From positions 1-61,138 of the forward strand of contig JAMOAB010000039.1 of NCBI GenBank assembly GCA_023621995.1: a stretch of 61,138 nucleotides of DNA, written 5' to 3'. The DNA is from Bacillota bacterium. Lineage in GTDB: Bacteria > Bacillota > Clostridia > Caldicoprobacterales > Xylanivirgaceae. The notes under the pieces were generated by a model. The model was not told the origin of the DNA. It saw only the letters and a list, made by a program, of their open reading frames with translations, and made no database searches. Position 1 is the stretch's first letter. Each line of letters starts with the position of its first letter. The position numbers and the translations under genes are program-made. Positions 1,038 to 40,223 of the stretch are shown piece after piece.

Positions 1038-1054
1038 GCCTTTTCTATAAAAAT

Positions 1055-1285: not shown

Positions 1286-1287
1286 TC

Positions 1288-1731: not shown

Positions 1732-1790
1732 ATGTACTCTTCCCCACTTTCTATATATAGAATAAATTAAAATAAGGGAAACATGATACG

Positions 1791-2366: not shown

Positions 2367-2371
2367 CTACA

Positions 2372-3316
2372 TTACCTCAGAAAATCTACCAAGGTAGGCT
2401 GTATTATACGGGCTCCCACCGATAGGGAAGATCGGTATACCATCTGTGCCATCATAAACTGCATTATGACTTCTGCCTGATCCACATCCTCCACTTGGGA
2501 TTTTACAGCTGTATAGTTTATCTTATCATCGCCATAGCGATGTTCCACCATCTCAAGCCTATTATATTTACCACCTACATCGGCAAGATGGGATAATATA
2601 TCTTGCTGGGCGTTTTGAAGTTTTCCAATGGAGCTATCTATCGCCTCTATATCGTTATTCTCCAGTGCATCGGTGAGCTCTACAATTACATTGAATATAT
2701 TGTCATAACCTGTTCCAAGGAGTTCAATTCCGTTAATGCTCACCTTCATATTGACTCCTGGTCCTATCTCATAGTTGAGTTCTTCCCCTTCAAGTTCAGA
2801 AAGTTTATCTACTTCACCAGTTATTAGATCTATCCCGTTATAGAGAAGGTTGCGATTGCCATCATCGTCTTTAACTATCTTAAATGGTTCTTTAACGGTA
2901 TTATATCCGCCAAATACATATCTACCACCATATGTAGTATTGGCAGCTTGTATTAGTTGTTCTTCAAGTTCCCTAAGTTCTTTAGCATTAGCTGCCCTAT
3001 CCTCTGGGGTCTTACTGGCATTGACTGAATCTATGGCCAAATCATATGCCCGCTTTATAATCTCATTCATCTCCATAAGGCTTGTCTCTGTCTGGGTTAG
3101 CCACGCCTTGGCATCTCCTACGTTTTGGGTATATCTCTCTATCTTTGAAAGGTCGGTTCTAGCTTGAAGGCTCCGCGTTATACCCACTGGATCGTCTGAT
3201 GGCCTATATATCTTCCTACCCGTCTCTAATTGATAATGATACTTCTCCATCTTCCCAAGGTTGCTATTCATGTTGTATAAAAATCTATTTATCATCATAC
3301 TATTTGTAATTCGCAT
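2372..3316 (-). CDS. flgL: Hook-filament junction protein FlgL (HAP3)
   Basis: Joins the flagellar hook to the filament. The 314 aa protein starts MRITNSMMINRFLYNMN, has the flagellin-like N-terminal helix with TGRKIYRPSDDPVG, and ends with the conserved C-terminal helix VIMQFMMAQMVYRSSLSVGARI. Both are the secreted, polymerising ends of this axial protein. It follows flgK by 11 bases and is clearly in the same transcript. Confidence 0.93.
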   Translation of the reverse strand: MRITNSMMINRFLYNMNSNLGKMEKYHYQLETGRKIYRPSDDPVGITRSLQARTDLSKIERYTQNVGDAKAWLTQTETSLMEMNEIIKRAYDLAIDSVNASKTPEDRAANAKELRELEEQLIQAANTTYGGRYVFGGYNTVKEPFKIVKDDDGNRNLLYNGIDLITGEVDKLSELEGEELNYEIGPGVNMKVSINGIELLGTGYDNIFNVIVELTDALENNDIEAIDSSIGKLQNAQQDILSHLADVGGKYNRLEMVEHRYGDDKINYTAVKSQVEDVDQAEVIMQFMMAQMVYRSSLSVGARIIQPTLVDFLR

Positions 3317-3327
3317 GGTAACCCTCC

Positions 3328-4866: not shown

Positions 4867-4893
4867 TTTCTCACCCCTAATATGTTTTTTAAA

Positions 4894-5325
4894 TTATGCC
4901 TTTTGGTCAAATAGATTTATAGGTTTATTGCCTGTGAGGTTACCTAGTGTAAATTCTACATATTCAAGGTTTGTCTTAAGAAGCTTGTTATTTATGTGGT
5001 TCAACCTTCTTTGCTCCTCTATAACTTCTAAGAGTTCCTCGAATATGGTCTCAAGCCTCCCCGCTAGCTCGTCATCTGCCATATCTATAAGGCGTGTTAT
5101 TGTCAAGTCTTTCTCTCCTAGCTCAGCTACAGCTTTCATACGCTCTTCCTCTAGCTTACCAAGGGTCATTATCATGGTCTGCTGGACCTTGAGTATTTCA
5201 TCTAGCTCTTTTATTTCACCGTTTATTATTACATCAGTGAGTTTATCTGATAACCTAGCCAGGTCCCTGTGTATATTTAGCTGATTTTCCAATATGTGTG
5301 CTACTTCTTGTATCTTATTTTGCAT
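4894..5325 (-). CDS. flgN: FlgN-type export chaperone
   Basis: 143 aa, almost wholly helical and acidic, with heptad-like spacing throughout, matching the FlgN/YvyG family that keeps FlgK and FlgL soluble for type III export. Sequence identity in this family is always low, so the call rests on length, helical character and position between flgM and flgK. It starts 3 bases after the flgM stop. Confidence 0.82.
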   Translation of the reverse strand: MQNKIQEVAHILENQLNIHRDLARLSDKLTDVIINGEIKELDEILKVQQTMIMTLGKLEEERMKAVAELGEKDLTITRLIDMADDELAGRLETIFEELLEVIEEQRRLNHINNKLLKTNLEYVEFTLGNLTGNKPINLFDQKA

Positions 5326-5328
5326 ACG

Positions 5329-5631
5329 TCACACCTTCTTATTGTATAGAACGCCATCTACCATCTTTTCGGCTACTTGCCTTGCATCCACATGGTATTT
5401 TCCCTTTTCTATAAGTGTTTTAACCTCATCCACTCTCTGTGCTCGCTCCTCTATAAACTTTTCGATTTTCTGCCCATCTACTTTAGTGGCCTGGAGCAGC
5501 TTAGCCTCTTCAGAGAGTATAACCTGATCTTGACCCTGAACTGGCGACTTGTGCTTTTCCTTCTTTACCTCTTGCTCATGAGTTTTATATAGATTGACTA
5601 TTCTATTTATTTGGGGACCATTTATTTTCAA
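5329..5631 (-). CDS. flgM: Anti-sigma-28 factor FlgM
   Basis: Inhibitor of SigD, secreted once the hook is complete so that late genes can be expressed. KINGPQINRIVNLY is the conserved start, and the C-terminal half with VDARQVAEKMVDGVL is the sigma-binding helix region. I start at TTG 5631 (100 aa) because GAGGTGA is spaced 5 bases before it and homology begins there. A longer frame to ATG 5661 has only a weak ribosome site. A SigD promoter lies at 5690-5716, so FlgM limits its own synthesis. Confidence 0.9.
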   Translation of the reverse strand: MKINGPQINRIVNLYKTHEQEVKKEKHKSPVQGQDQVILSEEAKLLQATKVDGQKIEKFIEERAQRVDEVKTLIEKGKYHVDARQVAEKMVDGVLYNKKV

Positions 5632-5689
5632 CGCTTTCACCTCATTTTTACTGGTTGACATTCACTTTTTAGTTTCCACTTCAACTATT

Positions 5690-11344: not shown

Positions 11345-12532
11345 TTAAAAAGCTTGGGATTTAAGGGCTTCTACCTTGTCAAGTCTCTCCCAAGGCAGAT
11401 CTATATCTGTCCTACCAAAATGTCCATAGGCTGCAACCTGCTTGTAGATAGGTCTTCTAAGGTCTAGGTCTCTGATTATTGCAGCAGGTCTTAGGTCAAA
11501 ATTCTTATTTATAAGTTCGACTATCTCGTCATCTGATATTTTACCTGTACCAAATGTGTCAACATGTATGGATACTGGCTTTGCAACGCCTATTGCATAG
11601 GCAAGTTGTAATTCACACCTATCGGCGATACCAGCAGCCACTATATTTTTAGCCACATATCTTGCAGCATAAGAAGCAGAACGATCGACTTTTGTAGGAT
11701 CCTTACCTGAGAAGGCACCACCTCCATGTTTTCCATAGCCACCATATGTGTCTACTATAATCTTACGTCCGGTAAGACCTGAGTCACCCTGTGGTCCTCC
11801 GACTACAAATCTGCCAGTTGGATTTATGAGGAATTTTGTATCCTCATCTAAGAGCTCCTCTGATATGGTGCCCTTTATGACGTTCTCTATTATATCCCTC
11901 TCTAAGGTCTCCCTATCAATACTTGGATGATGCTGGGTGGATATTACTACAGTATCTACTCTATATGGCTTTCCATCCCTATATTCTACAGTTACCTGGG
12001 ACTTTCCATCTGGTCTTAGATAGTCAAGTGTGCCATTTTTCCTTACAACTGATAGCTTACGTGTAAGCTTATGGGCTAGGGATATTGCCATGGGCATTAG
12101 CTCCGGCGTCTCATTACATGCATAGCCAAACATCATACCTTGGTCTCCAGCTCCTATAGCTTCAATGGCATTATCATCCATAAGTCCCTCTTTAGCCTCT
12201 AATGCCTTGTCTACACCGAGGGCTATATCTGGTGACTGCTCATCTATAGATGTTATCACTGCACAGGTCTCAGCATCAAATCCAAATTTTGCCCTAGTAT
12301 AGCCTATTTCGGCAACTGTCTCCCTGACGATTTTGGGAATATCCACATAACAGTTGGTTGTAATCTCACCCATGACCAATACCATGCCTGTGGTAACAGC
12401 AGTTTCACAAGCCACCCTTGCCTGACTATCTTTGGCTAGTATGGCATCAAGTACTGCATCTGAGATCTGATCGCATATCTTATCTGGGTGCCCCTCTGTT
12501 ACAGATTCTGATGTAAAATATGTCTTTACCAT
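11345..12532 (-). CDS. metK: S-adenosylmethionine synthase
   Basis: Makes S-adenosylmethionine from methionine and ATP. 395 aa, normal length. It has the signatures [17 protein letters not shown] near residue 14, [12 protein letters not shown] near 127 and [17 protein letters not shown] near 250, with the ATP- and metal-binding His, Asp and Lys residues in place. Its leader contains a SAM-I riboswitch, so product SAM represses the gene. SAM use is picked up by the SAH-recycling pair at 19.7-22.2 kb. Confidence 0.97.
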
Positions 12533-19672: not shown

Positions 19673-20983
19673 CTACTTCATTATTCTTTCTTTTATCCTA
19701 TCCACTTCATAGTATACCCTATCTAAATCTATCGTCCTAAGCTCTCTCCCATCCATGAGTATATTACCATCCACAATTACAGTATCCACATCGGAACTAT
19801 ATCCACTGTATACTAGAAGTGCCGTCATGTCATCTATAGGTCTATAATGTGTCTTATTCGTATCTAGCAGTATTATATCTGCCCTTTTACCCACTTCAAT
19901 GCTACCTATCTCATCTATCCATCCTAGTGCTTTGGCACCATTTATGGTAGCCATCTTAACTGCCTCCTTGGCAGGTAAGACCTGTGCACTCTTGGCCACA
20001 GCCTTTCCTAATATGGATGCAAGCTGCATCTCCTTTAGTATGCTCAAGTTATTATTACTAGAGGCACTGTCTGTACCAAGGGATACATTTATACCCTTTT
20101 CCATGAATTGGGCTGCAGGCATAAACCCGCTTGCAAGTTTTAGATTACTATATGGGCAGTGGGCAATTGAGACATTCCTATCCTTTAATATGTCTACCTC
20201 CTCATCTTGAAGATGGACACAGTGGGCTGCTAAAGTAGGAACTTCAAATAGCCCTAACTCTTCTAAGTATAAGACAGGTGGTTTACCATGCTTTTCAATA
20301 CTTTCCGTTACTTCGCCTTTTGTCTCTGATATGTGGATATGTATGCCCGTATCTAGCTCTTTTGCAAGTTCAATACATTCTCTTAAATAATCAGAAGAAC
20401 AAGTATATATGGCATGGGGGCCTACCATGACCTTGAGTCTACCTCCTGCCTTACCCTCCCATCTCTCCCACAACATTCTATTTTCTTTGAGCCTCTTATC
20501 TGAGCTTTCATCAGGCCCTTGAAGTCCCCTTGCAAGGACGGCCCTAAGCCCTACTTCATCTACTCCCCGTGCCGTCTCTTCCATGAACATATACATGTCG
20601 GAAAAAGTAGTAGTACCTGCTTTAATCATCTCAGCCATAGCAAGGAGGGATAGCCAGTAGGCATCATCGGCCTCTATCTTATCTTCTAGTGGCCACATCT
20701 TCTCTGAAAGCCACTCCCATAGAGGAAGATCGTTTGCATAGCCTCTAAAGAGGACCATTGCAGAGTGGGTATGGGTGTTTATAAGGCCGGGGAGGGCAAG
20801 GTAGCCCTTGCCCTCTATTACCTCATCTCCTTCATATCCAGCTCTACCTTCTTGCATGTCTCCAACATATACTATTGTATTTCCATCTACTGCTATACAG
20901 CCATTTTTGTACTCAGTATAGTCATCATCCACTGTAAAAATATCTACATTCTCTATTAGGAGAGATACTCTTGTCTTTTCCAT
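19673..20983 (-). CDS. mtaD: SAH/MTA/5'-deoxyadenosine deaminase-type amidohydrolase
   Basis: 436 aa zinc amidohydrolase of the MtaD/DadD group, which deaminates adenine in S-adenosylhomocysteine, methylthioadenosine or deoxyadenosine. It has the metal motif LINTHTHSAMVLFRGYA, the third His in LAAHCVHLQDEE, and metal Asp in LGTDSASSNNNLSI. Start ATG 20983 follows GGGGTGA, which contains the ahcY stop, so the two genes are coupled (gap 1 base). That coupling suggests a two-step route: deaminate SAH to S-inosylhomocysteine, then hydrolyse it with the AhcY-type partner. Confidence 0.9.
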   Translation of the reverse strand: MEKTRVSLLIENVDIFTVDDDYTEYKNGCIAVDGNTIVYVGDMQEGRAGYEGDEVIEGKGYLALPGLINTHTHSAMVLFRGYANDLPLWEWLSEKMWPLEDKIEADDAYWLSLLAMAEMIKAGTTTFSDMYMFMEETARGVDEVGLRAVLARGLQGPDESSDKRLKENRMLWERWEGKAGGRLKVMVGPHAIYTCSSDYLRECIELAKELDTGIHIHISETKGEVTESIEKHGKPPVLYLEELGLFEVPTLAAHCVHLQDEEVDILKDRNVSIAHCPYSNLKLASGFMPAAQFMEKGINVSLGTDSASSNNNLSILKEMQLASILGKAVAKSAQVLPAKEAVKMATINGAKALGWIDEIGSIEVGKRADIILLDTNKTHYRPIDDMTALLVYSGYSSDVDTVIVDGNILMDGRELRTIDLDRVYYEVDRIKERIMK

Positions 20984-20984
20984 A

Positions 20985-22229
20985 TCATTCACCCCATCCT
21001 GAGAGATACTCTCTCTGCTCCGGCAACAGCACATCTATATCAATGCCCATGGACTCAAGCTCCATCTTAGCTACCCTCTTATCTATATCCTCAGGCACCT
21101 CATATACCTTGTTTTCCATGCTTCCATGGTTCTCCAGTATATACTTTGCAGATAGGGCCTGAAGTGCAAAGCTCATATCCATTATCTCTGCAGGATGTCC
21201 ATCTCCTGAGGCAAGATTTACAAGACGACCATCGGCTAAGAGGTTCAGGGTCCGCCCATCTTGGAGAATATAGCCATCTATATTCTTTCGCATATATTTT
21301 TTATCTATAGATAGCTCCCTTAGATCGTCCTTATCTATCTCTACATCAAAGTGACCAGCGTTTGCAAGGAGGACTCCATCCTTCATCTTTTCAAAGTGTT
21401 CCTTCCTTATTACTCGATTACATCCGGTGACCGTTATAAACACATCTCCAAATGGTGCAGCTTCTTCCATAGTCATTACCTTAAAGCCATCCATTACAGC
21501 TTCAATTGCCTTTATTGGGTCCACTTCTGTAACTATTACATTTGCACCAAGCCCCTTTGCCTTTGCTGCCACACCCTTACCACACCAACCATAGCCAGCC
21601 ACCACCACAGTCTTTCCTGCCACTATTAGATTTGTAGTACGCATTATGCCATCCCATACCGACTGGCCTGTTCCATATCTATTGTCAAATAGGTATTTAC
21701 AATAGGCATCGTTTACCGCTATCATTGGGAATTTAAGCTCCCCTTCCCTTTCCCTAGCTCTAAGTCTTAGGACACCTGTTGTTGTCTCTTCACAGCCACC
21801 TAATATATTCTCAACAAGCTCTGATCTTGTGGTATGAAGTAGGTGAACAAGGTCTCCACCATCATCGATTATTATATCTGGTTTCAAATCTAAGGTCTTA
21901 TTTAAATGTTCAAAATATTCTTCATCAGTTGCTCCATGCCAAGCATACACATTAAGTCCTTCTGCTGCAAGTGCTGCAGCTATAGGATCTTGTGTGGAGA
22001 GAGGATTACTGCCTGTGATTGCAACCTTTGCCCCTCCCGTAGCCAGCACAAGGGCAAGATAAGCCGTCTTTGCCTCTAAATGGACCGATACAGCTATCTT
22101 TTTGCCTTCAAAGGGCTTGTCCCTCTCAAACTCCTCCTCCAGCTGGTTTAAAAGTGGCATATAGCCTCTAACCCAATCTATCCTAGCCTTGCCCTCTGGG
22201 GCTAGATTTATATCTCTTATAATACTCAT
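20985..22229 (-). CDS. ahcY: AhcY-type hydrolase, probably S-inosylhomocysteine-specific
   Basis: 414 aa member of the S-adenosylhomocysteinase family, NAD-dependent ([19 protein letters not shown]). Conserved STQD, DDGGDL, EETTTGV and GHFDVEID blocks are all present. It is the short archaeal/Thermotoga-like form without the C-terminal KPDHYRY tail. In human SAHH the adenine site has Thr57 and Glu59 in HMTVETA; here the block reads HLEAKTA, so these positions are Glu and Lys. That change and the coupled deaminase fit an enzyme for S-inosylhomocysteine, as shown in Methanocaldococcus. Direct SAH hydrolysis is the alternative. Confidence 0.9.
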
Positions 22230-28174: not shown

Positions 28175-28501
28175 ATGTCTGCCGTCAATGAGATGTATGC
28201 AAAGGAATTTAACGCAGATCTTGGTGAACTATCACTCTACCTTGAAGGTTCTAAACACTGGAAGAGATTTAATGCCAACAGAATTGAAAAAATCAAGAAA
28301 ACCACAGTTATGCAAAAGAAACTATTTACTAAAAAACCAGTAGATCGAATAGAAATATTCATAGATGGCGATGACACACTCTATGTAATTCAAAAAGACA
28401 GACTTAAGGATGATTTCAGTTGGGTAAATGATGTGCTAAAGAGTTTCGCAGAAAAAAATAAGGTCAAATACGAAGAAGAGGGACAAAAAATCCAGGTTTA
28501 A
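28175..28501 (+). CDS. Hypothetical protein, 108 aa
   Basis: I do not recognise the family. ATG 28175 follows AAGGGGG. The protein is basic in the middle (RIEKIKKTTVMQKKLFTKKP), has no membrane segment or signal, and ends with an acidic-to-basic tail. DRIEIFIDGDDTLYVIQKDRL looks like a beta-hairpin. The last nine codons lie inside a 54-base perfect palindrome that also terminates the gene. It is a lone plus-strand gene facing the chemosensory operon. Confidence 0.7.
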   Translation: MSAVNEMYAKEFNADLGELSLYLEGSKHWKRFNANRIEKIKKTTVMQKKLFTKKPVDRIEIFIDGDDTLYVIQKDRLKDDFSWVNDVLKSFAEKNKVKYEEEGQKIQV

Positions 28502-28526
28502 ACCTGGATTTTTTGTCCCTCTTCTT
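28473..28526. terminator. Perfect 54-bp palindrome, two-way terminator
   Basis: The 27 bases 28473-28499 are the exact reverse complement of 28500-28526, with no loop bases. The inner part (AATCCAGGTTT/AAACCTGGATT then TTTTTTG) makes an intrinsic terminator in both directions between converging genes. The left arm codes for the end of the 28175 protein including its stop codon. Confidence 0.85.
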
Positions 28527-28562: not shown

Positions 28563-29711
28563 CTATTTTACTGTAATATTCATTATGGCCACATCATCTT
28601 TCAAAAGCCTAGAATCTACTTTTCCGTAAAATTCTATAATAGCCTCTATAAACTCTTCCACATCTTCTATAGCCTTATCCCTATTAATTGATATAAACTC
28701 ATGTATATCTTCACAGGTAAAGCATTTTCTCTCATTAGATTTCAATTGGGGTTCTAAAAGTCCATCAGTATAGCAAAATATCATATCCCCTTGTTCTAGC
28801 TTTTGCTCCTCATCTCTATACGTCTCTCCATCGAACACCCCAAGTATCAGACCGTTTTGCTCTAACATAATCACATCATTTCTTTTAGGCCTTATTACTA
28901 TGGGATAGGGATGTCCAGCATTTGCATATGTAAGTGTCCCATCTCGAACAACCCCTACAAAGGCAGTCAGATGATATTTGCCTGATATCATTGGATAGAA
29001 TGTATTATTCATGCATGCCAGTACTTCAGACGGCTGGTCATGTATGCTTACACAATTGGTAAACATCACCTTTATCATGGAAGAAATCATGGCTGCAGCT
29101 ACTCCGTGGCCAGACACATCTGCAACTATAAACCAAAGCCCATCATCGGTCTGTACACAATCGTAAAAATCTCCTCCAATTTCACTACATGGTACATACT
29201 TACCTGTCATAACTCCATCTTCTAAATCCTTGTGTTCCACAATTAGAGTGTGCTGGAGGGCATTTGCAAACTTTAGCTCCTCCCTTAAACGTTGGTTCAT
29301 CTGTTTTAAAAGCTTGTGCTGCTCATAACTTCTGAGAGCATTTTGAACCTTAATAGGGAGAACTACCTCCAGCTGCTCTAATGTCAATGGCTTTGTAAAA
29401 TATTCATTTGCACCTAACTCCAGTGCTTTTTTTATGGTATCTATCTCGTCTACTGCAGAATTTACTATCACTGGAATATCCCCATATTCCCTTTTAGATT
29501 TGAGCTCCTTAAGGACCTCAAACCCACTCTTGTTTGGCATTATAAGGTCTAATATTACGAGATCTACATCTCTATTCTCTACGTATTCTAGTGCCTCATT
29601 TCCATCTACTGCATCATAGAAGTTGATACCCTCAATATTTTTTTCTAATACAGATTTTATAAGCTTCCTGTTGAGAAGCATGTCATCTGCTATAAGTACA
29701 TTGTACCCCAT
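28563..29711 (-). CDS. Response regulator with RsbU-like PP2C phosphatase
   Basis: 382 aa. Residues 1-120 form a CheY-like receiver (IADDMLLN acidic pair, LVILDLIMPNKSG phosphoacceptor Asp, YFTKPL Lys). A coiled helix (HKLLKQMNQRLREELKFAN) leads to an SpoIIE/RsbU-type PP2C domain with metal motifs SEIGGDFYDCV, VADVSGHGVAAAM and YTDGLLEP. It would dephosphorylate an STAS partner when its receiver is phosphorylated, presumably by CheA of the same operon. The STAS target is probably 39398-39700. It is the last gene of the operon, converging on the 28175 gene. Confidence 0.9.
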   Translation of the reverse strand: MGYNVLIADDMLLNRKLIKSVLEKNIEGINFYDAVDGNEALEYVENRDVDLVILDLIMPNKSGFEVLKELKSKREYGDIPVIVNSAVDEIDTIKKALELGANEYFTKPLTLEQLEVVLPIKVQNALRSYEQHKLLKQMNQRLREELKFANALQHTLIVEHKDLEDGVMTGKYVPCSEIGGDFYDCVQTDDGLWFIVADVSGHGVAAAMISSMIKVMFTNCVSIHDQPSEVLACMNNTFYPMISGKYHLTAFVGVVRDGTLTYANAGHPYPIVIRPKRNDVIMLEQNGLILGVFDGETYRDEEQKLEQGDMIFCYTDGLLEPQLKSNERKCFTCEDIHEFISINRDKAIEDVEEFIEAIIEFYGKVDSRLLKDDVAIMNITVK

Positions 29712-29752
29712 AAAATCCCCTCACATAATAAAATCACACTATTTTGAAATTC

Positions 29753-30112
29753 CTATATTACCTTGGATATGGCACTTATTATCTTGTAGTCGTCAAAGGG
29801 CTTTTTCAAAAACACATCAACCCCTAAGCCTTTGGCTTCATCCATAACCTCTCTATCACCCATAGCACTCAACATTATAATCTTTGCATCTGGGTCTTGA
29901 TTCTTTATTGCCTTTGTGGTCTCCAGGCCATCCATTATGGGCATTGTAATATCCATAAACACAAGATCTGGAGAGAGGTCAGTATATAACTCTACACCCT
30001 CCTTTCCATTCTTCGCCTCCCCACACACCTCATATCCATGCTTCTCTAAAGTCTTTTTCAATAATCCCCTTATCATTGGGGAATCATCTACTATGAGTAT
30101 ACGCTTTATCAC
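29753..30112 (-). CDS. cheY: CheY-like response regulator (second copy)
   Basis: 119 aa single receiver domain: RILIVDDSPMIRG, phosphoacceptor in VFMDITMPIMDG, switch Ser in IIMLSAMGD and Lys in FLKKPF. The KILIVDD-start and MPxMDG form are typical of chemotaxis CheY. It follows the CheX cluster and precedes the phosphatase gene by 41 bases. Differs clearly from the CheY at 31560, so the two may serve different outputs. Confidence 0.92.
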   Translation of the reverse strand: MIKRILIVDDSPMIRGLLKKTLEKHGYEVCGEAKNGKEGVELYTDLSPDLVFMDITMPIMDGLETTKAIKNQDPDAKIIMLSAMGDREVMDEAKGLGVDVFLKKPFDDYKIISAISKVI

Positions 30113-30124
30113 ATTATCCCTCCT

Positions 30125-30586
30125 CTATATTTCAAGTCCAATATTCACTTCCACCTCTCCAGCAGGAGTCTTTAAATCTACTGTGATTGTATCCACTGAG
30201 CTTATGATAAAGTATATGTCGCTGCCAAACACAATGGACGGTGGCGTTATATCCACATTTACATCATTCTCAGAAAGGAGAATCGATGCATTGCCTGTAA
30301 CCATGTTTGATAGCTCTCCAATACCACTTCTAGCCACCTCATCCAGCTCTTCAACTGGCATGCCCATCATCATGGATGATACTATATTCTTGGCCGTATC
30401 TTGCGACATTGAATAGGCTACGTTACCTCTAAGTTCCCCTACTATACCAATTATTGCTGTCACATCCTTATCGACAGCCATATAGTCCTTCTTGTATAAC
30501 CCACTTCTCTCTATGCCAACCATGCCAAACTGCTCTAGTATATTCTTTAGTCCATCTAAAAATGGTAGTATATATTTTATATCCAT
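30125..30586 (-). CDS. cheX: CheX-type CheY-P phosphatase paralogue 1
   Basis: 153 aa of the CheX/CheC/FliY phosphatase fold. The catalytic E-x-x-N helix is IGELSNMVTGNASILLSEN, followed by ITPPSIVFGSD, the usual strand. VDKDVTAIIGIVGELRGNVAYS is the first repeat strand pair. It should remove phosphate from CheY. It lies 3 bases after paralogue 2. All three paralogues keep the Glu and Asn. Confidence 0.87.
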   Translation of the reverse strand: MDIKYILPFLDGLKNILEQFGMVGIERSGLYKKDYMAVDKDVTAIIGIVGELRGNVAYSMSQDTAKNIVSSMMMGMPVEELDEVARSGIGELSNMVTGNASILLSENDVNVDITPPSIVFGSDIYFIISSVDTITVDLKTPAGEVEVNIGLEI

Positions 30587-30589
30587 GCA

Positions 30590-31060
30590 TCAACCCTCCT
30601 TTTCAAATGCAATATTTATCTTTAAATCCCCATGGTCAGAACTTCCATGTATGGTCACCGAACTTAACTTAGGGATTGATATAATTGGTTCCTTCCCACA
30701 TAGCACTATGGGTGGTGCAAGCCTTAGGCTGAGTTTAAGCTCATCGTTTAAAACTGTTATGGCATCGCCAGCTATTATATTATTGAGCTCTGCTATAGAT
30801 GTGAGTACGTCATACTCCCTTACATCTTTATACTCCACACCTGTTATATTATTGGTGATTTTAATTGCCAGCTCCGGCACCATATCAATGAGAAATCTCC
30901 CCCTCCTAACACCTGCAAACGTCACTATGGATGTGACACCAAGTGAGGATATCTCCTGCCCCTCTTCACACACCTGGTCACTTAAATCTATGTGAAGTCC
31001 TGTCATCTGCCCTATAATATTTGCTGTGCTTTCTATAAATGGCTTATATAGGCTGTCCAT
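30590..31060 (-). CDS. cheX: CheX-type CheY-P phosphatase paralogue 2
   Basis: 156 aa, same fold as its neighbours. The catalytic helix is SIAELNNIIAGDAITVLND (E-x-x-N kept), then RLAPPIVLCGKEPII. N-terminal YKPFIESTANIIGQMTG matches the CheX opening. It is about as far from paralogues 1 and 3 as CheX proteins of different species, so this is old duplication, not recent copying. GGGAGGG precedes the ATG. Confidence 0.87.
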   Translation of the reverse strand: MDSLYKPFIESTANIIGQMTGLHIDLSDQVCEEGQEISSLGVTSIVTFAGVRRGRFLIDMVPELAIKITNNITGVEYKDVREYDVLTSIAELNNIIAGDAITVLNDELKLSLRLAPPIVLCGKEPIISIPKLSSVTIHGSSDHGDLKINIAFEKEG

Positions 31061-31077
31061 CTCTTTCCCTCCCTAAC

Positions 31078-31560
31078 CTAAATCTTTGCCACGCTTAAAA
31101 ACATCTCCACGTCTCCAGCTATGAATCGTCTACATATCCTATTCTCCCTGTCTTTAAACACCATCTCTATATTTGTTCCTGATATGGAAAAGGGAGAGGT
31201 AATTGAGAGATCTAGGCCCTCCCTCACCAAATCTGCCTTTACCCTACCCACTAGCATATTGACAAGCTCAGCCATGCCATCGTGTACATCTTCATCTGTC
31301 AGGTCTGTAGGCATTATCCCTGTCATGTACGCAACTATGAGTTTTGAAGAGTTTATGTCGGTGGCCAAGGCAACCACTGCATCTATGCTTCCAAATACCG
31401 CCATAACCCCTATTATTGTCTCTACTGATTCAAACTCGGCAAACTGTGAGCAATCAGGATCATCTTCCACATCAAATCCGGTCATTGTTGTAATAACATC
31501 TATAACTGCCCTGTTTAAGAGACCATTTAACTTTTTCATATCTACAGAAACCATATCCAT
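31078..31560 (-). CDS. CheX-type CheY-P phosphatase paralogue 3
   Basis: 160 aa from ATG 31560, which overlaps the TGA of the upstream cheY by one base (TGATG) with AAGGGG ahead of it, so translation is coupled. The catalytic helix is DGMAELVNMLVGRVKADL (E-x-x-N kept), then SITSPFSISGTNIEMV. The first half (VIGVMAVFG-like IIGVMAVFGSIDAVVALATD) fits the fold. This is the most divergent of the three and may have a different phospho-partner. Confidence 0.82.
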   Translation of the reverse strand: MDMVSVDMKKLNGLLNRAVIDVITTMTGFDVEDDPDCSQFAEFESVETIIGVMAVFGSIDAVVALATDINSSKLIVAYMTGIMPTDLTDEDVHDGMAELVNMLVGRVKADLVREGLDLSITSPFSISGTNIEMVFKDRENRICRRFIAGDVEMFLSVAKI

Positions 31561-31931
31561 CAACCCCTTCCTAGACATTCTAGTATCCGCTTTGTTAGCT
31601 CCTCTATGGTAAATGGCTTGACCAGATAATGGGTTGCCCCTGTCTGTATCGCCTTTATTATATTCTCCCCTCCAGTCTCACTTGTGACCATCATAACGGG
31701 TATATGTCTCAAGTGCTTATCTTTTTTTATAAGCTCAAGCATTTCAAATCCGTCCATCCCAGGCATATTCCAATCTAGCAGTATAAGAGCTATATCTTCA
31801 TATTCGTCTTCTAATATATCAAGGGCTTCCTTAGCATCTTTCGCCTCCACCACTTCATAGTCTAGAACCTCTACTGCACTACGTATTATCTTACGTACTA
31901 TTGCAGAATCATCTACTGTCATGATTTTCAT
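31560..31931 (-). CDS. cheY: CheY-like response regulator (first copy)
   Basis: 123 aa receiver domain: MKIMTVDDSAIVRKIIRSAV, phosphoacceptor in ILLDWNMPGMDGFEML, switch Thr in VMMVTSETG and Lys in YLVKPFT. The WNMPxMxG form is the classical chemotaxis CheY type. It overlaps the end of cheR (ATGA) and the start of CheX paralogue 3, so the block is translated as a unit. Confidence 0.93.
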   Translation of the reverse strand: MKIMTVDDSAIVRKIIRSAVEVLDYEVVEAKDAKEALDILEDEYEDIALILLDWNMPGMDGFEMLELIKKDKHLRHIPVMMVTSETGGENIIKAIQTGATHYLVKPFTIEELTKRILECLGRG

Positions 31932-32794
31932 AGGACTTCCCCCTTTTTACGATAATATACCCCGCCTTCATACTGCTCCATATCAAAATATTCCCTATAG
32001 ACGCTTAGCATCTCTGAACTACCTATAAAGAGTATGCCACTATCCTTTAGAGCCATTGAAAACTTTGAGACAAGCTCATCCTTTAGATCAGATGAAAAAT
32101 ATATCATAACATACCTACAAAATATGATATGGAACTTTCCAAGGAGCACAAAACTATTTTGTAAATTAAACTGTCTAAAGTCTACCATATTTCTTATCTC
32201 ATCGTCTAAAATCCATACTCTTCCTTCACGTTTAAAATATTTATCTCGATAACTAGCAGGCATACCTCGCATTATGGAGATACTATCGTACCTACCCTTC
32301 TTTGCAACTTCAAGTACGGTGGAGGATATATCAGTTGCCACTATTTCAAACTTTGGTAAGAATTTTTCCTTAAGCCCCCTAATATCTAGGAAATTATGTA
32401 TGACCATTGCCGTTGAATAGGGTTCTTGCCCTGTAGAACAGCCGGCACTCCATATTCTTATCCTATCTCTTTTACCACTTTCAAGGTCCTTAATATACTG
32501 GGGGAGAAGTACCTTCTCAAGGATTATCCATGGAGTCTTGTCTCTAAACCAAAGTGTCTCATTTGTGGTTATTGCGTCTATGACCCGCTCTGAAACCCTT
32601 CTATCTTTTTTAGTATATATTAGATGATATAACTCTTCATAGCTAGAACAATTAAATTCACCTAACATACTAGACAGTCTGCTCTCAATTAGATATGCCT
32701 TGTCATTGCCAATACTTATACCACATTCCTCTTCTATATATCTCTGCATAAGTGCAAATTCCTTGGATGATATATTTACATTCATATTCATCAA
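31928..32794 (-). CDS. cheR: Chemotaxis methyltransferase CheR
   Basis: 288 aa. Methylates receptor glutamates with SAM. N-terminal helical domain (ISSKEFALMQRYIEEECGI) and SAM-binding domain with IRIWSAGCSTGQEPYSTAM, ATDISSTVLEVAKKGRYD and IIFCRYVMIYFS. It has no C-terminal TPR or pentapeptide tether. Start overlaps the cheB stop by 4 bases (ATGA). Confidence 0.95.
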   Translation of the reverse strand: MMNMNVNISSKEFALMQRYIEEECGISIGNDKAYLIESRLSSMLGEFNCSSYEELYHLIYTKKDRRVSERVIDAITTNETLWFRDKTPWIILEKVLLPQYIKDLESGKRDRIRIWSAGCSTGQEPYSTAMVIHNFLDIRGLKEKFLPKFEIVATDISSTVLEVAKKGRYDSISIMRGMPASYRDKYFKREGRVWILDDEIRNMVDFRQFNLQNSFVLLGKFHIIFCRYVMIYFSSDLKDELVSKFSMALKDSGILFIGSSEMLSVYREYFDMEQYEGGVYYRKKGEVL

Positions 32795-33930
32795 CCCCTA
32801 CCTGATACAATATCTATAATTCTCCCTCCAATGTCGTCTATATGGACTTCTTCATCAGAAAGGCCTGCTTCATATACACTCTTTGGCATACCATATACAA
32901 CACAACTTTCTCTACTCTGGGTAATGCAATAGCAATTTAGATAGGATTTTAGCTTCCTAACCCCATCTGTACCATCACTGCCCATACCAGTGAGTACTAT
33001 GGCAAGGACATCTCGTCCTCTGTAGTGCTCTGCTACAGAGGAAAAGAGTACATCAGCTGCAGGCTTTACTCCATGTACAGGGGGAGTATCCTCTAGGTCA
33101 ATTACCCTAAGTCCACCCTTATTCCCTATCACCATATGAAAGCCTCCTGGGGCAAGTATACAAACCCCTGGCTCTATCCTACACCCAGCCTTACCTTCCC
33201 TTACACTGAGTTTACTCTTCTTATCCAAAGTCTCTGCCAGCATTTTGGTAAATGTGGGAGGCATGTGCTGGACAATGAGTATGGGAACATCAATATCTGA
33301 AGGCAATGCTGTTAGCACCTTCTCCAGGGCCATAGGACCACCAGTAGAAGAAGCTATTAGTATGAGATCAACATCCTCTAGCTTGACTTTAGCTAAAGAT
33401 CTATCCTCCTCACATCTGTAGGGTTTGGATGTTATCTTGCCCTTTCCCTCCATCTTAAAATCTGTAGATTGTTTACTAGGCATGCGCTTCTTTGCCGCCT
33501 CTTTAAAGACGTTAGAGTATTTTTTAGTGAGTATCTGGGCAAAGAGAATATGGAGATAACTCTTAATCCTCTCCATATTTCTCTCCATATTACTGCCTGA
33601 GGGCTTTAATATAAAATCCATTGCCCCCATTTCAAGGGCCTTTACTGTGAGCTCTGCACTGTCTTTTCCGCCGCTGCTTATCATTATAACTGGCTTATCT
33701 TCATACTTCTCCTTTATTATCCTTAGCACTTCAAGACCATTTAGTTTGGGCATATATACATCGAGCAATATTACGTCAATTTCTCCCTGTTCTAGTCTCT
33801 CTAGTGCAATCTCTCCATTGGATGCTGTATATTTTACCTCAGCAAGCCCAGTGTCTTCCACTGCTCTTGTAAGTATATTCCTATAGACTAGAGAGTCATC
33901 TACTACAAGTACCTTTAGCTTATCCCCCAA
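32791..33930 (-). CDS. cheB: Chemotaxis methylesterase CheB
   Basis: 379 aa. Receiver domain at 1-120 (VLVVDDSLVYR, VILLDVYMPKLNGLEVL) joined by a basic linker to the esterase with LILIASSTGGPMALEKVL (catalytic Ser), IVQHMPPTFTKML (His) and VLTGMGSDGTDGVRKL (Asp). Removes methyl groups from the receptor when phosphorylated by CheA. Start is TTG 33930 with GAGGGTG upstream. Confidence 0.95.
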   Translation of the reverse strand: MGDKLKVLVVDDSLVYRNILTRAVEDTGLAEVKYTASNGEIALERLEQGEIDVILLDVYMPKLNGLEVLRIIKEKYEDKPVIMISSGGKDSAELTVKALEMGAMDFILKPSGSNMERNMERIKSYLHILFAQILTKKYSNVFKEAAKKRMPSKQSTDFKMEGKGKITSKPYRCEEDRSLAKVKLEDVDLILIASSTGGPMALEKVLTALPSDIDVPILIVQHMPPTFTKMLAETLDKKSKLSVREGKAGCRIEPGVCILAPGGFHMVIGNKGGLRVIDLEDTPPVHGVKPAADVLFSSVAEHYRGRDVLAIVLTGMGSDGTDGVRKLKSYLNCYCITQSRESCVVYGMPKSVYEAGLSDEEVHIDDIGGRIIDIVSGRG

Positions 33931-33943
33931 TTTAATTCACCCT

Positions 33944-36376
33944 CTATATCTTATATTGCTTAACCAAAGACTCTAGCTTTTTAGCATGTTCTGACAGCGA
34001 ACTTGCAGACGTACTAGTTTCCATGGCCTGATTGGCAGTATCATTGGCAGCTGCAGTTATCTCTTCTATATTTTGCGATATCTCGCTTGTACCTTTGGAT
34101 ATCTCGTCTGTAGATCTTGCCACGTCAATTACCTTTCTAGATGCTACCTCTGTGTTCTGTGCAATCTCATTTGCCGCTGTCGATAGTTCAGATGAAGACC
34201 TTGCTATTTCTCGTACTCCTAGGGAAGCTTCAGATAGACTCTTGGATGCCTCACGGGCATTTTCTGCAACCCCGCCTACCTCACTACTCACCCGACTTAC
34301 CTCACTGGCTGCCTTTACAACAGAGTTTGAGATCTCGCCTGTTATGGCTGACTGTTCGGTTACAGCCGAGGCTATGGCATTGGTTATATTGTCTATCTCT
34401 TCTATTACAACTGTTATGGTCTCAACAGCACTTACTGCATCTCCCATATCAAGTTGCATCTCCTCTATCTGCTGGGCTATCTCATCGGTTGCCTCTGCAG
34501 TCTGTTTTGCAAGTTCCTTAACCTCGCTTGCCACCACTGCAAAGCCTTTACCAGCCTCGCCGGCTCCGGCAGCCTCAATGGCAGCATTTAGCGCTAACAT
34601 ATTGGTCTGATCAGCTATGTCGTTTATCACATTTACAATCTTACCTATTTGTTTAGATGATCTATTTAGTTTTTCTATTATCTCATTTGTATCCTTTGCC
34701 TTACCCTCTGCATCCTTCGTAATTGCAATAGAGCGATCACAGCTCTTGCTTACTTCATTAAGCGAAATATTAAGTTCCTTGACAGCAGTAGCCACACTAT
34801 TTACCGATGTAGCTACTTGCTCTGACGAATCTGCTGCACTGTCTATCCTATCTGATATCTGGGCCACAACACTGCTCACCTGATCTACACTCACCGATGT
34901 CTCCTCAGAGGCAGATGCTAAGTTTCGCACAGTTGCCGACATCTCCTCTATGGCAGATGCTATGACACTTATATTGCTACTTGCCTCCGACGAGGCAGCA
35001 GCTGTACTCTCTATACTAACCGTTATCTCATGGACAGCGGCGCTTACAACTCCTGTCTTAGCGTTCATCTCTTCACTATTTGCCGCCAGTGTATCGGCAA
35101 TATTTAAAAGCCCATCTGACGATTGATTTAACAAAAGTGCTGTCTCATACACGTCACTGGTCATGGAATGCATCTTGTCTATGAGATTATTAAAGGATTC
35201 TGTAAACATTCCAAGCTCATCTTTAGACCTAATCTCGCCTCGGATGGTAAGATCTCCATCACCGATACCTTCCATAAGCCCTTCAAGCTCTTTTATGGGA
35301 GAGGCTATTTTGTCTGCAATATATACACGTAGTATGAGTGCGGCTATTATTCCAGCAGCAATGGCCACTATGAGCACTATATAGGATGTGTGGGCCACTT
35401 TCTTGCCCCGTCTTGCACTTGCATCTGCCAACTGTCCACTCTTTTTCTCCAAAATCTCAATGCTTTCACTTGCTGCTTTATAAGCAGGTTTTTCGATAGT
35501 TAAGGCATGTTCCATCATCTCATGATATATATCTTCTGCCCTCTTCGCTACTTCATCCATGCTATCTAATAGCTCTAGTACCTTTGCCATAGTGGGCTCT
35601 GTCACATTTTTATATTCGGCCATAGCAAGGTCTATCCTATTGCCCTCATTGCCATTTAATATATCAACAATCTTTTCTCCACTCTCATGGACAGCCTTAT
35701 GATAGCCATCTAGCTCTTTTAGGAGTGCATTTATCTCGTCATTTTCCGTCTCAAATGTGGTTAGCCATTGGCCTAGTGCACATTTTGTAGGATCTAGTTC
35801 GCCTTGAAATTCTGTGTCATCAACTATAGACACACCAAGTTCCCTTATCCACATTACATGATCCCGCTCTCTCTGGGCTATCACATAACGAAGGGTATCA
35901 GGCTCTATAATATGTGTCTCATCTAGTCGCCTTGACATCTCCATAAATTCTTCATGATGTTTTTTCCAGGTATTCCATTGGAGCATGAACTCGCCCCACA
36001 ATTTCTTCTCCTCTCCGCTTAGATCCAAGCTTTCATATTGGTTCCAAGCCCTATCTATCGTCTCCCATTTTTCTTCTATCACTTTGTAGCGCTGTTCTCT
36101 ATCCTCTTTAGACAGCTCAGAGCTTAAAAGCATATTCTCTGCCATGTTTATCTCTGAATGGGCCTTTCCCAGTACAAGCAATGCCTCAAAGCTCTCCATC
36201 CTCACCTCAGTTATATCCCTAAGCCCGTCCATAATATTGTTCATACCTATGTAACCTACTGCCCCTATTATTATAGTTATGGCTATGGTTATTGAAAATG
36301 CAGCCAAGAGTTTGCCTTTGAGTTTCATATCATCAAAATTAGTAAATTTAAACCACTTCTTCTTTTGTGTATCCAT
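33944..36376 (-). CDS. Methyl-accepting chemotaxis protein with outer CZB-like domain
   Basis: 810 aa receptor, the only one in the window. Membrane segments lie near 22-44 and 331-352. The outer part is a helical bundle that includes a CZB-like zinc site: RDHVMWIRE (His173), [11 protein letters not shown] (Cys199), then YHKAVHESG (His226, His230). A HAMP region ([20 protein letters not shown]) and a long signalling domain follow, with the hairpin tip [21 protein letters not shown]. In most proteins CZB is cytoplasmic and senses zinc or hypochlorite; here it faces outward. The gene lies between cheW and cheB, so it is likely the dedicated input of this array. Confidence 0.9.
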
Positions 36377-36390
36377 CTAACACATACCCC

Positions 36391-36825
36391 CTATAGTTCA
36401 TGTTGAAATATTTCCTCTGTATCAATGAGCATTATGAGCTCAGTGTCTTTCTTTATCACTTCTTTTAAAAATTTGGCTTCAACAGCACTTATATTGGCAG
36501 GCAGGGGTTCACATTCATGATCCCCAACCTCTAGAACATCTCCTGGTCTATCTATTAAAAAACCTACAAGGTCAGCATCAGGTGTCTTTGGCTTTAACGT
36601 TATACAAGTAGGTCTATTTTTATTACATCCCTCTTCATATTCTAGCCTCTTACCAATGTCAAATAGGGTAACAACCTGTCCCCTCATGTTGAATAATCCT
36701 ACTATATAGTCCCTACTTCGGGGAACAGGTGTGTATTTTATATTTCGATTGATCTCCTTAACCATGGTTATATCTATGCCAAATAGCCTATCACATAGAT
36801 AGAATGTAAGTACCTTACCCTCCAT
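36391..36825 (-). CDS. cheW: Chemotaxis coupling protein CheW
   Basis: 144 aa from ATG 36825 (AAGGAGG upstream), overlapping the 3' end of cheA by 11 bases. Two CheW beta-barrel halves: LTFYLCDRLFGIDITMVKEI, VPRSRDYIVGLFNMRGQVVTLFD (split here as two motifs around the conserved NxRG) and VGFLIDRPGDVLEV. It links the receptor to CheA. Confidence 0.94.
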   Translation of the reverse strand: MEGKVLTFYLCDRLFGIDITMVKEINRNIKYTPVPRSRDYIVGLFNMRGQVVTLFDIGKRLEYEEGCNKNRPTCITLKPKTPDADLVGFLIDRPGDVLEVGDHECEPLPANISAVEAKFLKEVIKKDTELIMLIDTEEIFQHEL

Positions 36826-39376
36826 AGATGCCACCTCCTTCATAGAGCTTGGGACATGCCATATCTATGAGTTCATCTATACTTACAACTAGTACTACCC
36901 GATCTTCCACCAGTATAGAGCCATGGAGACCTGGAACCTTTATATCTTTGTCGTTTATATCTGTAACTCCATGTATGGTGTCATATATACGCTCTACGAG
37001 TATACCAACGCGACTTTCTCCATACTTTGGTATTATGAGGTAGAGCTTTTCACCACTTTCGCCCCTCCTCTGTATAGGAAGATGATCTTCCGGCCTTATT
37101 ATCATAAGGGGCCTACCCCTATAACTCATATACTCCCTATCGCCTATTGTCTCTATCTTACTTTTTTGTATCTCTTCCACTCGAGCAACCTGGGATAGAT
37201 GTACAGAAAGTACCTCTGGACCTGAGGCCTTAAATAGGAGCATGTCATAGGCTATAGAATCAGACATACTAGGTATGTCTATCTCCCCATCTGTAACGCC
37301 ATCATCACCTATAAATTTAAGATCAGCCATCTCCATAATACCTTGGGGATCTAATATCATGGCAATACTTCCATCTCCCATTATGGTAACACCGGAATAG
37401 CACCTACACTCCTTTAAAAACTTAGGTAGAGGTTTTACCAATATCTCTTCATCATCATATATAGAATCTACCACAAGCCCAAACCTCTTAGATCCCAGTT
37501 TCAGTACTAGTACCCTCATTATGCTATCCATATTGCCACCTTCATCTGTCGCCTTTCTAGGCAGACCTAGTATATCTGCAAGATAGATCAGTGGAAGTAA
37601 ATTCCCCCTAAGGCGGAGGACCTCCGATTCATTTATATATTCTATGCTACGGGTATCGTCCCCTGGCTTTATTCTCACCATCTCCTGAAGGTTTATCTGG
37701 GGCAAGGCAAAGTGTTGACCGGCTACCTCTACTATGAGTGAAGATATTATTGCAAGTGTAAGGGGAAGGGTGAGCCTAAAGGTTGTACCCCCTCCCTTTA
37801 TTGTAAATATCTCTATACTACCACCAAGCTTTTCTATGTTCGTCTTTACAACATCCATACCTACGCCCCTACCAGATACGTCGGTTACCGTCTTTGCCGT
37901 TGAAAAACCTGGAGCAAATAGGAGGGACAGGGCTTCCCTATCACCCATCTCATCTAGTTCCATCTGGCTCACTATGCCCTTCTCCAAGGCCTTCTCCTTT
38001 ATAATATCTATATCTATACCGGCACCATCGTCTGATACATCTATAGTTACGTGTCCGCCCTCATGATAGGCCTTCAGTGATACCCTACCTGTCTTAGGTT
38101 TACCTAGCTGCTCCCTCACCTCTGGCTTTTCAATCCCATGATCCACTGCATTTCGTACAAGATGGGTCAGGGGATCACCTAGGGCTTCGATTATAGATTT
38201 GTCGAGCTCCACATCTACACCATCCATGGTGAGCTCTATCTCTTTGCCCAAATTCTTTGAGATGTCCCTTATTATCCTGGGGAATTTATTGAATACATTG
38301 CCTATGGGTTGCATTCGAGTTTGCATTATCTTCTCCTGCAATTCGGTGGTTATATGATCTATATTTTGTAGTATACTCTCAATACCAGGTATGGCCTTTG
38401 TGTGTCCCTCCATTGTCCTAAGAAGCTGATTCCTTCCCAGCACTAACTCACTTGCCAAGTTCATAAGGTCGTTTAAGAGATTTATATGTACCCTTATACT
38501 GTCCTCCACAAGTTTAGAAGAAGGAGTTGTTGGAAGTTTGGAAGAAGGAGTTGTCGGGTGGGCTTTCACCCCTTTTGTATTGGCCTTTTGCAAAGGCCCC
38601 TTTTTCTCCTTACCCTGTCTAGTCTCCTCTCTACCGTCTTCCTCTAAAAGCTTATCTATCTGACCTTTGGATATATCTTTGTCTAGCTCCTCTATATTTG
38701 ACAGAGGAATGTCAAGTGCCTGGGCCACTAACTTCTTTTCCAGCACAGTAGTAAATACAAATGCAAGCTCTATATCATCGTCAAATACATTATGAAGGCC
38801 TTCTACATGGCTTATATCCGATTTAGACTCTATTATATTGCCAATGGAGGCTATATTGTTGAAAAAGGCTATAGGAGTTATGCCCTGCTTGGCCAAATCC
38901 CTGTTTAAGTAGATCTTCACCATATATAACCTATGTCCATGTTTAAGACTCTCTCTAAGGGTGTCCTGGCCATGTGCCCTTTCTTCTTTAGGAGCGTCTT
39001 TACCTGATAAAAAAACATTCAGCCTCTCTATATATTTAGATATATCCATGTTCTGGCTATCTTCCACATGCTCTACCATATAGAGGAGCATGTCGTTTGC
39101 CTCAAGAAGACTATCTATCATATTGGTGGTAAGCTCAAGCCTCTCTGCCCTCACCTCTCCAAATAGATTCTCCATGGTATGTGCTAAATTTACAATATTA
39201 TCTAGGGCAAAGAAACCTGCTGTGCCCTTTATGCTATGTACCGCCCTGAATATATCATTTACAAGGTCTAAGTCTAGCTCCTCTCCTTCTAAATGAAGGA
39301 GGTTATTTTCAACTGTCTCTATATGGGTTAGAGCTTCCTCGACAAATTCACTTATAAATTCTTCATTCTGAAGCAA
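36815..39376 (-). CDS. cheA: Chemotaxis histidine kinase CheA with two CheW-like domains
   Basis: About 853 aa from TTG 39376 (GGGAGGGG 8 bases upstream; another TTG at 39385 is too close to it). Order: Hpt domain with FRAVHSIKGTAGFFA (phospho-His near 47), a P2-like region, a linker holding a tandem repeat of TTPSSKLP, dimer helices, HATPase (HLVRNAVDHGIE, DDGAGID, GRGVGMDVVKTNI), CheW-like P5 (LAIISSLIVEVAGQHFALPQ) and a second CheW-like domain at about residues 690-840 (GVTDINDKDI, VEDRVVLVVSIDEL). Ordinary CheA has one P5, so this one may join more partners. It shares a transcript with STAS and RsbW-like genes. Confidence 0.94.
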   Translation of the reverse strand: MLQNEEFISEFVEEALTHIETVENNLLHLEGEELDLDLVNDIFRAVHSIKGTAGFFALDNIVNLAHTMENLFGEVRAERLELTTNMIDSLLEANDMLLYMVEHVEDSQNMDISKYIERLNVFLSGKDAPKEERAHGQDTLRESLKHGHRLYMVKIYLNRDLAKQGITPIAFFNNIASIGNIIESKSDISHVEGLHNVFDDDIELAFVFTTVLEKKLVAQALDIPLSNIEELDKDISKGQIDKLLEEDGREETRQGKEKKGPLQKANTKGVKAHPTTPSSKLPTTPSSKLVEDSIRVHINLLNDLMNLASELVLGRNQLLRTMEGHTKAIPGIESILQNIDHITTELQEKIMQTRMQPIGNVFNKFPRIIRDISKNLGKEIELTMDGVDVELDKSIIEALGDPLTHLVRNAVDHGIEKPEVREQLGKPKTGRVSLKAYHEGGHVTIDVSDDGAGIDIDIIKEKALEKGIVSQMELDEMGDREALSLLFAPGFSTAKTVTDVSGRGVGMDVVKTNIEKLGGSIEIFTIKGGGTTFRLTLPLTLAIISSLIVEVAGQHFALPQINLQEMVRIKPGDDTRSIEYINESEVLRLRGNLLPLIYLADILGLPRKATDEGGNMDSIMRVLVLKLGSKRFGLVVDSIYDDEEILVKPLPKFLKECRCYSGVTIMGDGSIAMILDPQGIMEMADLKFIGDDGVTDGEIDIPSMSDSIAYDMLLFKASGPEVLSVHLSQVARVEEIQKSKIETIGDREYMSYRGRPLMIIRPEDHLPIQRRGESGEKLYLIIPKYGESRVGILVERIYDTIHGVTDINDKDIKVPGLHGSILVEDRVVLVVSIDELIDMACPKLYEGGGIYGG

Positions 39377-39397
39377 ATAAACCAACCCCTCCCATCT

Positions 39398-39700
39398 TTA
39401 TTGAACAGTAAATACCTCGTCTAGCTTCATAATACTAAATAGATTGGCAATGTCGTCACTGGCTCCAACAACTTGGAAGCTCTTATCATTGTCCGTAGAT
39501 GTCTTAAAAAGGCCTACTACAAAGGTGACACCTATAGAGTCTATGCTCTTTACATTAGATATATCTAGTACTACTGAAGAGAACTGTCCATTATCCTCTA
39601 TACTATCTTTCGCCCTATCTAGATTGTCCCGTACTACACTTGCCGTCAGATCTTCCTTTAGTTCTATAACAAGGCTCTCACCATCTACCTCTATATTCAT
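39398..39700 (-). CDS. STAS-domain anti-sigma factor antagonist (RsbV-like)
   Basis: 100 aa STAS protein of the SpoIIAA/RsbV type. The phosphorylation site block is VLDISNVKSIDSIGVTFVVGL, with Ser in IDSIG where SpoIIAA has its target serine. LVIELKEDLTAS is the usual first strand. It lies 15 bases after the RsbW-like kinase gene, its probable kinase, and upstream of cheA. Dephosphorylation by the phosphatase at 28563 would release it. Confidence 0.9.
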   Translation of the reverse strand: MNIEVDGESLVIELKEDLTASVVRDNLDRAKDSIEDNGQFSSVVLDISNVKSIDSIGVTFVVGLFKTSTDNDKSFQVVGASDDIANLFSIMKLDEVFTVQ

Positions 39701-39719
39701 ATTTAACCTCCTTTCAAAT

Positions 39720-40115
39720 TTAAATATACATGATAGCTGTCATCCAACCGTCCCTATATTCTAGATTAAAACCCAGCATTCTAAGGGTGCTGAGCCCCCT
39801 AAAGCGACAGCGTCCTATATCTTCATGATCTATGGCTCTCAATGTCTGGTCAATATCAAATTCTGGTCCTTCATCCCACACCGATATGAGTATCTCCCCT
39901 CCAGTATGATGGAATATGCACTGGATTTTCTTACGTTGATCAAATCTATTCCCATGCTCAACTGCATTGTTTAAAAGCTCCCTTAGACAAAATTCAATAT
40001 GGAATATTGTAGATTTTGGATATATGTCCTCTAATACAGAGATCCTAGAAGATATATGCCCAACTAGCATATCGACTTCATCATACGACGAGAGACACTC
40101 TCCAATTATGAGCAT
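39720..40115 (-). CDS. RsbW-like serine kinase / ATP-binding protein
   Basis: 131 aa from ATG 40115 (GAGAGGG upstream; earlier ATG codons lack a ribosome site). HATPase_c fold: N-box FCLRELLNNAVEHGN, G1 box SVWDEGPEFDID, G2-like CRFRGLSTLRMLG. This is the anti-sigma/switch kinase family (SpoIIAB, RsbW). It should phosphorylate the STAS protein encoded next. No sigma factor gene lies nearby, so its bound output is unknown. First gene of the chemosensory operon. Confidence 0.87.
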   Translation of the reverse strand: MLIIGECLSSYDEVDMLVGHISSRISVLEDIYPKSTIFHIEFCLRELLNNAVEHGNRFDQRKKIQCIFHHTGGEILISVWDEGPEFDIDQTLRAIDHEDIGRCRFRGLSTLRMLGFNLEYRDGWMTAIMYI

Positions 40116-40223
40116 ATTAACCACCCTCTCTAGGATGTGGACCCAGTTTAATTTATAACCTATTTCACCACAATAAAACATAATATATCATTATTATACC
40201 AAATCCTTATAGTTTTTGGAAAT

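Follow-up and report, generated by a model that had tools for sequence, protein, structure and literature searches.

Organization of the operon

The locus described here raises the question of what a chemosensory array controls when its genes share an operon with a serine-kinase-like protein, a STAS protein and a PP2C phosphatase. Serine-phosphorylation partner switches normally govern stress sigma factors, and the original prediction, made on the window (the whole stretch of DNA analysed, 61,138 nucleotides), described an array wired to a complete RsbU/RsbV/RsbW-like switch with an output outside, or besides, the flagellar motor. The 13 genes of that description are all present in the predicted order, as judged by Pfam domain matches, on the minus strand from position 40115 to 28563: HATPase_c_2, STAS, CheA, CheW, MCP, CheB, CheR, CheY1, CheX1, CheX2, CheX3, CheY2 and REC-PP2C. 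Intergenic spacings, in gene order, are 19, 12, -29, 14, 13, -4, -4, -19, 17, 3, 12 and 41 bases, the overlaps of -29 (CheW) and -19 (CheX1) varying with the in-frame start chosen.

The first gene begins with ATG at 40115, with GAGAGGGTGG positioned upstream. A TG-extended promoter-like site (TTTCCA - 18 - TATAAT; 40193..40222, minus strand) lies 5′ of the operon, found by a consensus scan that overall stays at background level in this region. At the distal end, a bidirectional terminator-like hairpin with a 20-bp stem (28477..28522, minus strand) sits 40 bases past the last gene, and terminator-like sites number 20 against 6.8 expected from shuffles. The operon is flanked upstream by an aspartokinase-type gene and downstream by genes for a DUF4855 protein and an extracellular solute-binding protein, so that no further candidate partner adjoins it.

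Other genes of the region were recorded alongside. A convergent ORF of 108 residues (28175-28501, plus strand) gives no Pfam or NCBIfam match, and its counterpart is kept just past REC-PP2C in three relatives (G001, L056 1773-2084; G005, L058 5185-5487; G020, L061 8819-9124). SAM-cycle genes, encoding SAM synthetase and SAH hydrolase, occur in the window together with a gene for an Amidohydro_1 protein (11345-12532 and 19673-22229, minus strand); in G001, G005, G011 and G020, too, the operon has similar genes of SAHH-like or amidohydrolase type in its neighbourhood.

The chemosensory components

The operon encodes a complete MCP/CheA system, in which MCP, CheW, CheA, CheR, CheB and CheY are all found with their catalytic residues, each gene lying on the minus strand. 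CheA (856 residues; 36815..39385) comprises Hpt, H-kinase_dim and HATPase domains followed by two CheW domains, and carries the phospho-site residue H50 within HSIKGT. CheW (36391..36843) is followed by an 810-residue MCP (33944..36376) that combines 4HB, a zinc-binding CZB domain, HAMP and a signalling domain with an AAGAGE tip. CheB (32791..33930), CheR (31928..32794) and the single-receiver CheY1 (31560..31931) precede three CheX proteins, CheX1 (31078..31578), CheX2 (30590..31060) and CheX3 (30125..30586), all of which retain the E..N motif; CheX3 is the nearest of the three to Thermotogales CheX (NCBIfam 3e-32). The second single-receiver protein, CheY2 (29753..30112), is of flagellar type, being the best query against the flagellar CheY of the genome.

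In a CheA tree that leaves out the Shewanella Che1 protein, the window CheA falls in a clade (97/100) apart from both E. coli F7 CheA (40% identity) and the flagellar CheA of its own genome, and F7 membership was rejected on this placement. The reference proteins that lie closest, alpha-proteobacterial plasmid CheAs of 47-52% identity among them, join it with modest support (90/89), their class labels being taken as given. This arrangement of two CheW domains is typical of F5 CheA and also occurs in some F1 and one F10 protein (PMC10782961).

A second array beside the flagellar system

A separate flagellar cluster on another contig (C162) of the same genome encodes its own CheA, CheW, CheC, CheD and CheY together with a SigD-like sigma factor, and FliG is also encoded in the genome. 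Only four receptors were found in total. The operon receptor and its orthologues carry the signalling tip AAGAGE, whereas the other three receptors of the genome carry AARAGE or AARAGD. The arginine replaced in the operon receptor corresponds to a trimer-contact residue of E. coli Tsr, and mixed arrays therefore seem unlikely. Together, the separate flagellar Che set and the differing receptor tip argue for a second, insulated array.

The kinase, STAS and phosphatase components

The three remaining proteins frame the Che genes at both ends of the operon. The terminal REC-PP2C protein (28563..29711, minus strand) joins a Response_reg domain with receiver residue D55 to a SpoIIE domain that contains all metal motifs of SpoIIE/RsbU-type PP2C phosphatases (GGDFYD, DVSGHG, YTDG and DDVAI). 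Its best solved relative is the P. aeruginosa structure 3eq2 (5e-28), a protein named RssB (PMC12143880). The single-domain STAS protein (39398..39700, minus strand; Pfam 3.2e-9) matches TIGR00377 below the cut-off and contains the phospho-site motif IDSIG, in which D54 and S55 supply the phosphorylatable-serine DS-x-G signature of RsbU/RsbV/RsbW switches. This signature is kept in eight other copies of the module, while UBA3943 has NS-x-G instead.

The first gene encodes a 131-residue HATPase_c_2 serine-kinase-like protein (39720..40115, minus strand; Pfam 5.5e-11) that keeps an N-box, RELLNNAVEHGN, and a G1 box, DEGPEF. Its G2 box is atypical (RFRGL), and all Che-linked HATPase copies share the form R-x-R-G[LI] in place of GGxG. 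Against NCBIfam, this protein matches neither RsbW nor SpoIIAB and retrieves only the broad Pfam family HATPase_c_2, whereas the RsbW that the same genome encodes on contig C38 matches NCBIfam RsbW at 1.8e-23, though below the cut-off of that model; a structure prediction of the operon protein was uninformative (mean pLDDT 49). The atypical G2 box and the absence of an NCBIfam RsbW or SpoIIAB match leave its kinase activity and its binding to a sigma factor uncertain, and the operon HATPase is RsbW-like in domain family and probably in role rather than a demonstrated RsbW member. Moreover, Pfam reveals no sigma or anti-sigma gene inside the operon, and no sigma factor gene was seen in the corresponding operons of G002, G008, G287 and G589. 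With this HATPase and without a sigma gene, calling the set a complete RsbU/RsbV/RsbW switch overstates it, and that part of the original prediction is set aside.

Conservation of the operon and its variants

The original prediction had proposed a survey of gene order across genomes, and the arrangement proves to recur both within the same taxonomic order and in other families. Seven relatives in the order carry the operon (G001, G002, G005, G008, G011, G017 and G020), several of them split by contig ends, and further carriers came from a REC-PP2C profile search. Specifically, the order HATPase-STAS-CheA-CheW-MCP-CheB-CheR-CheY-CheX-REC-PP2C is found in G002, G008 and G017 and, in other families, in G287 and G589, some of these loci being interrupted by contig ends; the latter two read HATPase-STAS-CheA-CheW-(MCP)-CheB-CheR-CheY-CheX-CheY-CheX-CheX-REC-PP2C. 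Three other families keep the gene order and motifs and a further two have variants of them, and the HATPase is present in every locus whose sequence covers the stretch upstream of STAS. Since the order persists in other genera and families whose proteins are 35-79% identical, chance is excluded.

In G157, HATPase and STAS are fused into one protein of 268 residues, encoded between REC-PP2C and CheA. The UBA3943 locus reads MCP, MCP, CheR, CheD, CheB, CheA, HATPase, Hpt-STAS fusion, CheW and REC-PP2C; its REC-PP2C is orthologous (45% identical) and lies beside the fusion, whose Hpt is of CheA type with a weak P2 match. The existence of these HATPase-STAS and Hpt-STAS fusions supports the couplings proposed below. 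In G351, HATPase, STAS and REC-PP2C stand alone with no Che genes, and we therefore read the set as an autonomous output module to which chemosensory arrays have become linked.

Not every REC-PP2C protein is part of such a locus: the matches in G695, G716, G488, G450, G717, G485 and G447 have no adjoining CheA or STAS gene, and neither a kinase nor a STAS gene neighbours the Acetoanaerobium one (L140). In G668 (L121 7295-10468), MCP, STAS and REC-PP2C genes are adjacent, with no CheA gene within the stretch examined. In G287 (L107 15775-16839), a REC-HD_5 gene lies 25 bases upstream of HATPase in the same orientation, a possible extra output. A sigma gene 3′ of REC-PP2C in UBA3943 was considered as a client and rejected, as it encodes the sporulation factor SigK.

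Proposed signalling route

The kinase/STAS/PP2C set is very probably linked to the array through the receiver of the PP2C phosphatase. The genes, their order, domains and residues, their conservation and the fusions are observed; each phosphotransfer in the following route, the sense in which it acts and the client are inferred, and we give the route a probability of roughly two in three. The CZB-containing receptor, coupled through CheW, would set CheA autophosphorylation at H50, with CheR and CheB providing adaptation. Phosphorylated CheA would pass phosphate to CheY1, CheY2, CheB and D55 of REC-PP2C, and the three CheX proteins would drain phosphorylated CheY. The phosphorylated REC-PP2C would then strip phosphate from STAS S55, which the HATPase would restore. 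Dephosphorylated STAS would bind the HATPase, or another client, thereby freeing or engaging a target whose gene lies elsewhere, with a sigma/anti-sigma pair as a plausible case, and CheY2 may still have a motor role.

Relatives with like wiring, namely HptB to the REC-PP2C protein HsbR and RsbK to RsbY, support this route by analogy, and the DS-x-G serine retained in the module copies also speaks for it. As a counterpoint, sequence does not reveal which receivers an Hpt serves, and the PP2C receiver could obtain its phosphate from another kinase: in G589 (L111 5818-8199), a hybrid kinase (PAS-HisKA-HATPase-REC-REC-Hpt) lies directly past REC-PP2C, a possible second input to the phosphatase. 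Since array, kinase, STAS and phosphatase share one operon, the transfer from CheA to PP2C is testable with few proteins.

Alternative readings and candidate clients

The position of STAS directly 5′ of CheA, here and in relatives, also fits a different arrangement, in which STAS binds CheA and biases phosphate flow between CheY1 and CheY2, while HATPase and PP2C tune it by serine phosphorylation and no sigma-type client is involved. The precedent is alpha-proteobacterial CheS, a STAS-only protein of che operons that binds CheA (PMC12654446); like the rhizobial and roseobacterial systems, this operon pairs a single-domain STAS with two CheYs, and the fusion of STAS to a CheA-type Hpt in UBA3943 fits docking on the array. 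However, CheS leaves the HATPase and the PP2C unexplained, and the module occurs in G351 with no array to dock on. In the alpha-proteobacterial che clusters compared, the three STAS-type proteins have lost DS-x-G (a small sample, in which the Agrobacterium protein is annotated as hypothetical) and neither kinase nor PP2C genes turned up near their genes, whereas the operon has all three elements. A CheS-like role, the main rival of the proposed route, is considered unlikely. Still less credit is given to a plain second flagellar chemotaxis system, in which CheY1 and CheY2 drive the motor and HATPase, STAS and PP2C are co-transcribed without functional coupling. CheY2 is of flagellar type, and the window also carries a late flagellar cluster (flagellin, FliW, FlgL, FlgK, FlgN and FlgM; 76-5661, minus strand) about 23 kb downstream of the operon. 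Within the order, every carrier of the operon has FliG (8 of 22 FliG-positive genomes against 0 of 8 without FliG; one-sided p=0.055, kinship ignored), a weak restriction to flagellated genomes that leaves room for a motility role. Against this reading, the genome already has flagellar che genes including CheY and CheC, the tip of the operon receptor is unlike those of the other receptors, and the persistence of both operon ends, HATPase-STAS and REC-PP2C, across families, together with the fusions, is hard to square with an absence of coupling. The recurrence of the same wiring in other families suggests that the array governs a cell process other than, or besides, swimming direction, and to this extent the wiring first proposed is retained.

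Within the preferred route through STAS S55, two clients can be named tentatively, a choice that we regard as doubtful: the sigma-B-like module on C38 or FlgM/sigma-D, by which the array would control general stress or flagellar expression. Apart from itself, the operon HATPase matches a single protein of its genome, the C38 HATPase, and unphosphorylated HsbA binds FlgM in P. aeruginosa (PMC6482189), a FlgM gene being present in the window (5329-5661). On the other hand, SigB is encoded on another contig and FlgM lies about 23 kb away, and both remain candidate interactions. Most genomes of the order, with or without the operon, encode SigB-like orthologues (about 70% identity); such near universality makes co-occurrence uninformative, and the argument from co-occurrence for sigma-B as a client was dropped. 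In the C38 module itself (L066 8303-12176), an additional HATPase_c_2 gene comes after STAS-RsbW-SigB, and a CheR-like gene standing by itself about 1 kb upstream recalls the B. cereus methyltransferase RsbM.

Relation to known systems

The general idea of an array joined to a partner switch has been published, and the locus is little described only in a narrower sense. Gamma-proteobacterial F7 stage 1 clusters hold anti-sigma antagonists and a serine phosphatase, partly retained in stage 2 (PMC7184735), and in Shewanella the RpoS regulators CrsR and CrsA are part of Che1, with a link from array to switch described as probable (PMC9855816). These clusters resemble the present operon in combining che genes with a STAS anti-sigma antagonist and a serine phosphatase, in forming a second, non-flagellar system beside the flagellar one, and in having a partner switch as the proposed output (RpoS in Shewanella oneidensis). 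They differ in their F7 CheA, Aer2-like receptor and CheD, against a tandem-CheW, F5-like CheA, a CZB/4HB receptor and three CheX here; additionally, Shewanella CrsR fuses REC, PP2C and kinase, whereas the present operon encodes its kinase in a gene of its own.

In B. cereus, RsbK, a kinase under methylation control, drives the REC-PP2C protein RsbY (PMC4574943). This Firmicute pathway (RsbK-RsbM-RsbY/RsbV-RsbW-SigB) likewise leads from a histidine kinase under methyltransferase control through a REC-PP2C to STAS and the RsbW kinase, but it uses one hybrid kinase with SigB as client in place of an MCP-CheW-CheA array with a putative client elsewhere. The P. aeruginosa HptB-HsbR-HsbA pathway also runs from Hpt to REC-PP2C to STAS, and RssB is the closest solved relative of the operon phosphatase; HsbR, however, has its own kinase domain, and neither HsbR nor RssB/RssC is described as driven by an operon-encoded receptor array. 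Literature searches, whose coverage largely excluded subscription papers, retrieved no description of the Firmicute operon. What is new here is the combination of tandem-CheW CheA, separate HATPase, triple CheX and Firmicute hosts.

The UBA3943 CheA is placed elsewhere in the tree, on a long branch, and the module may therefore have joined arrays more than once. A bolder and rather improbable extension would have arrays capturing the same kinase-STAS-PP2C module repeatedly, with a tandem-CheW CheA in this operon, a different CheA in UBA3943 and F7 in gamma-proteobacteria, and, in this lineage, STAS docking on CheA, so that His/Asp and serine phosphorylation would form one feedback circuit inside the array. 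If the proposed route is true, CheR/CheB-adapted arrays would plug into serine-phosphorylation partner switches in Firmicutes too, with CheA lineages differing from those of gamma-proteobacteria.
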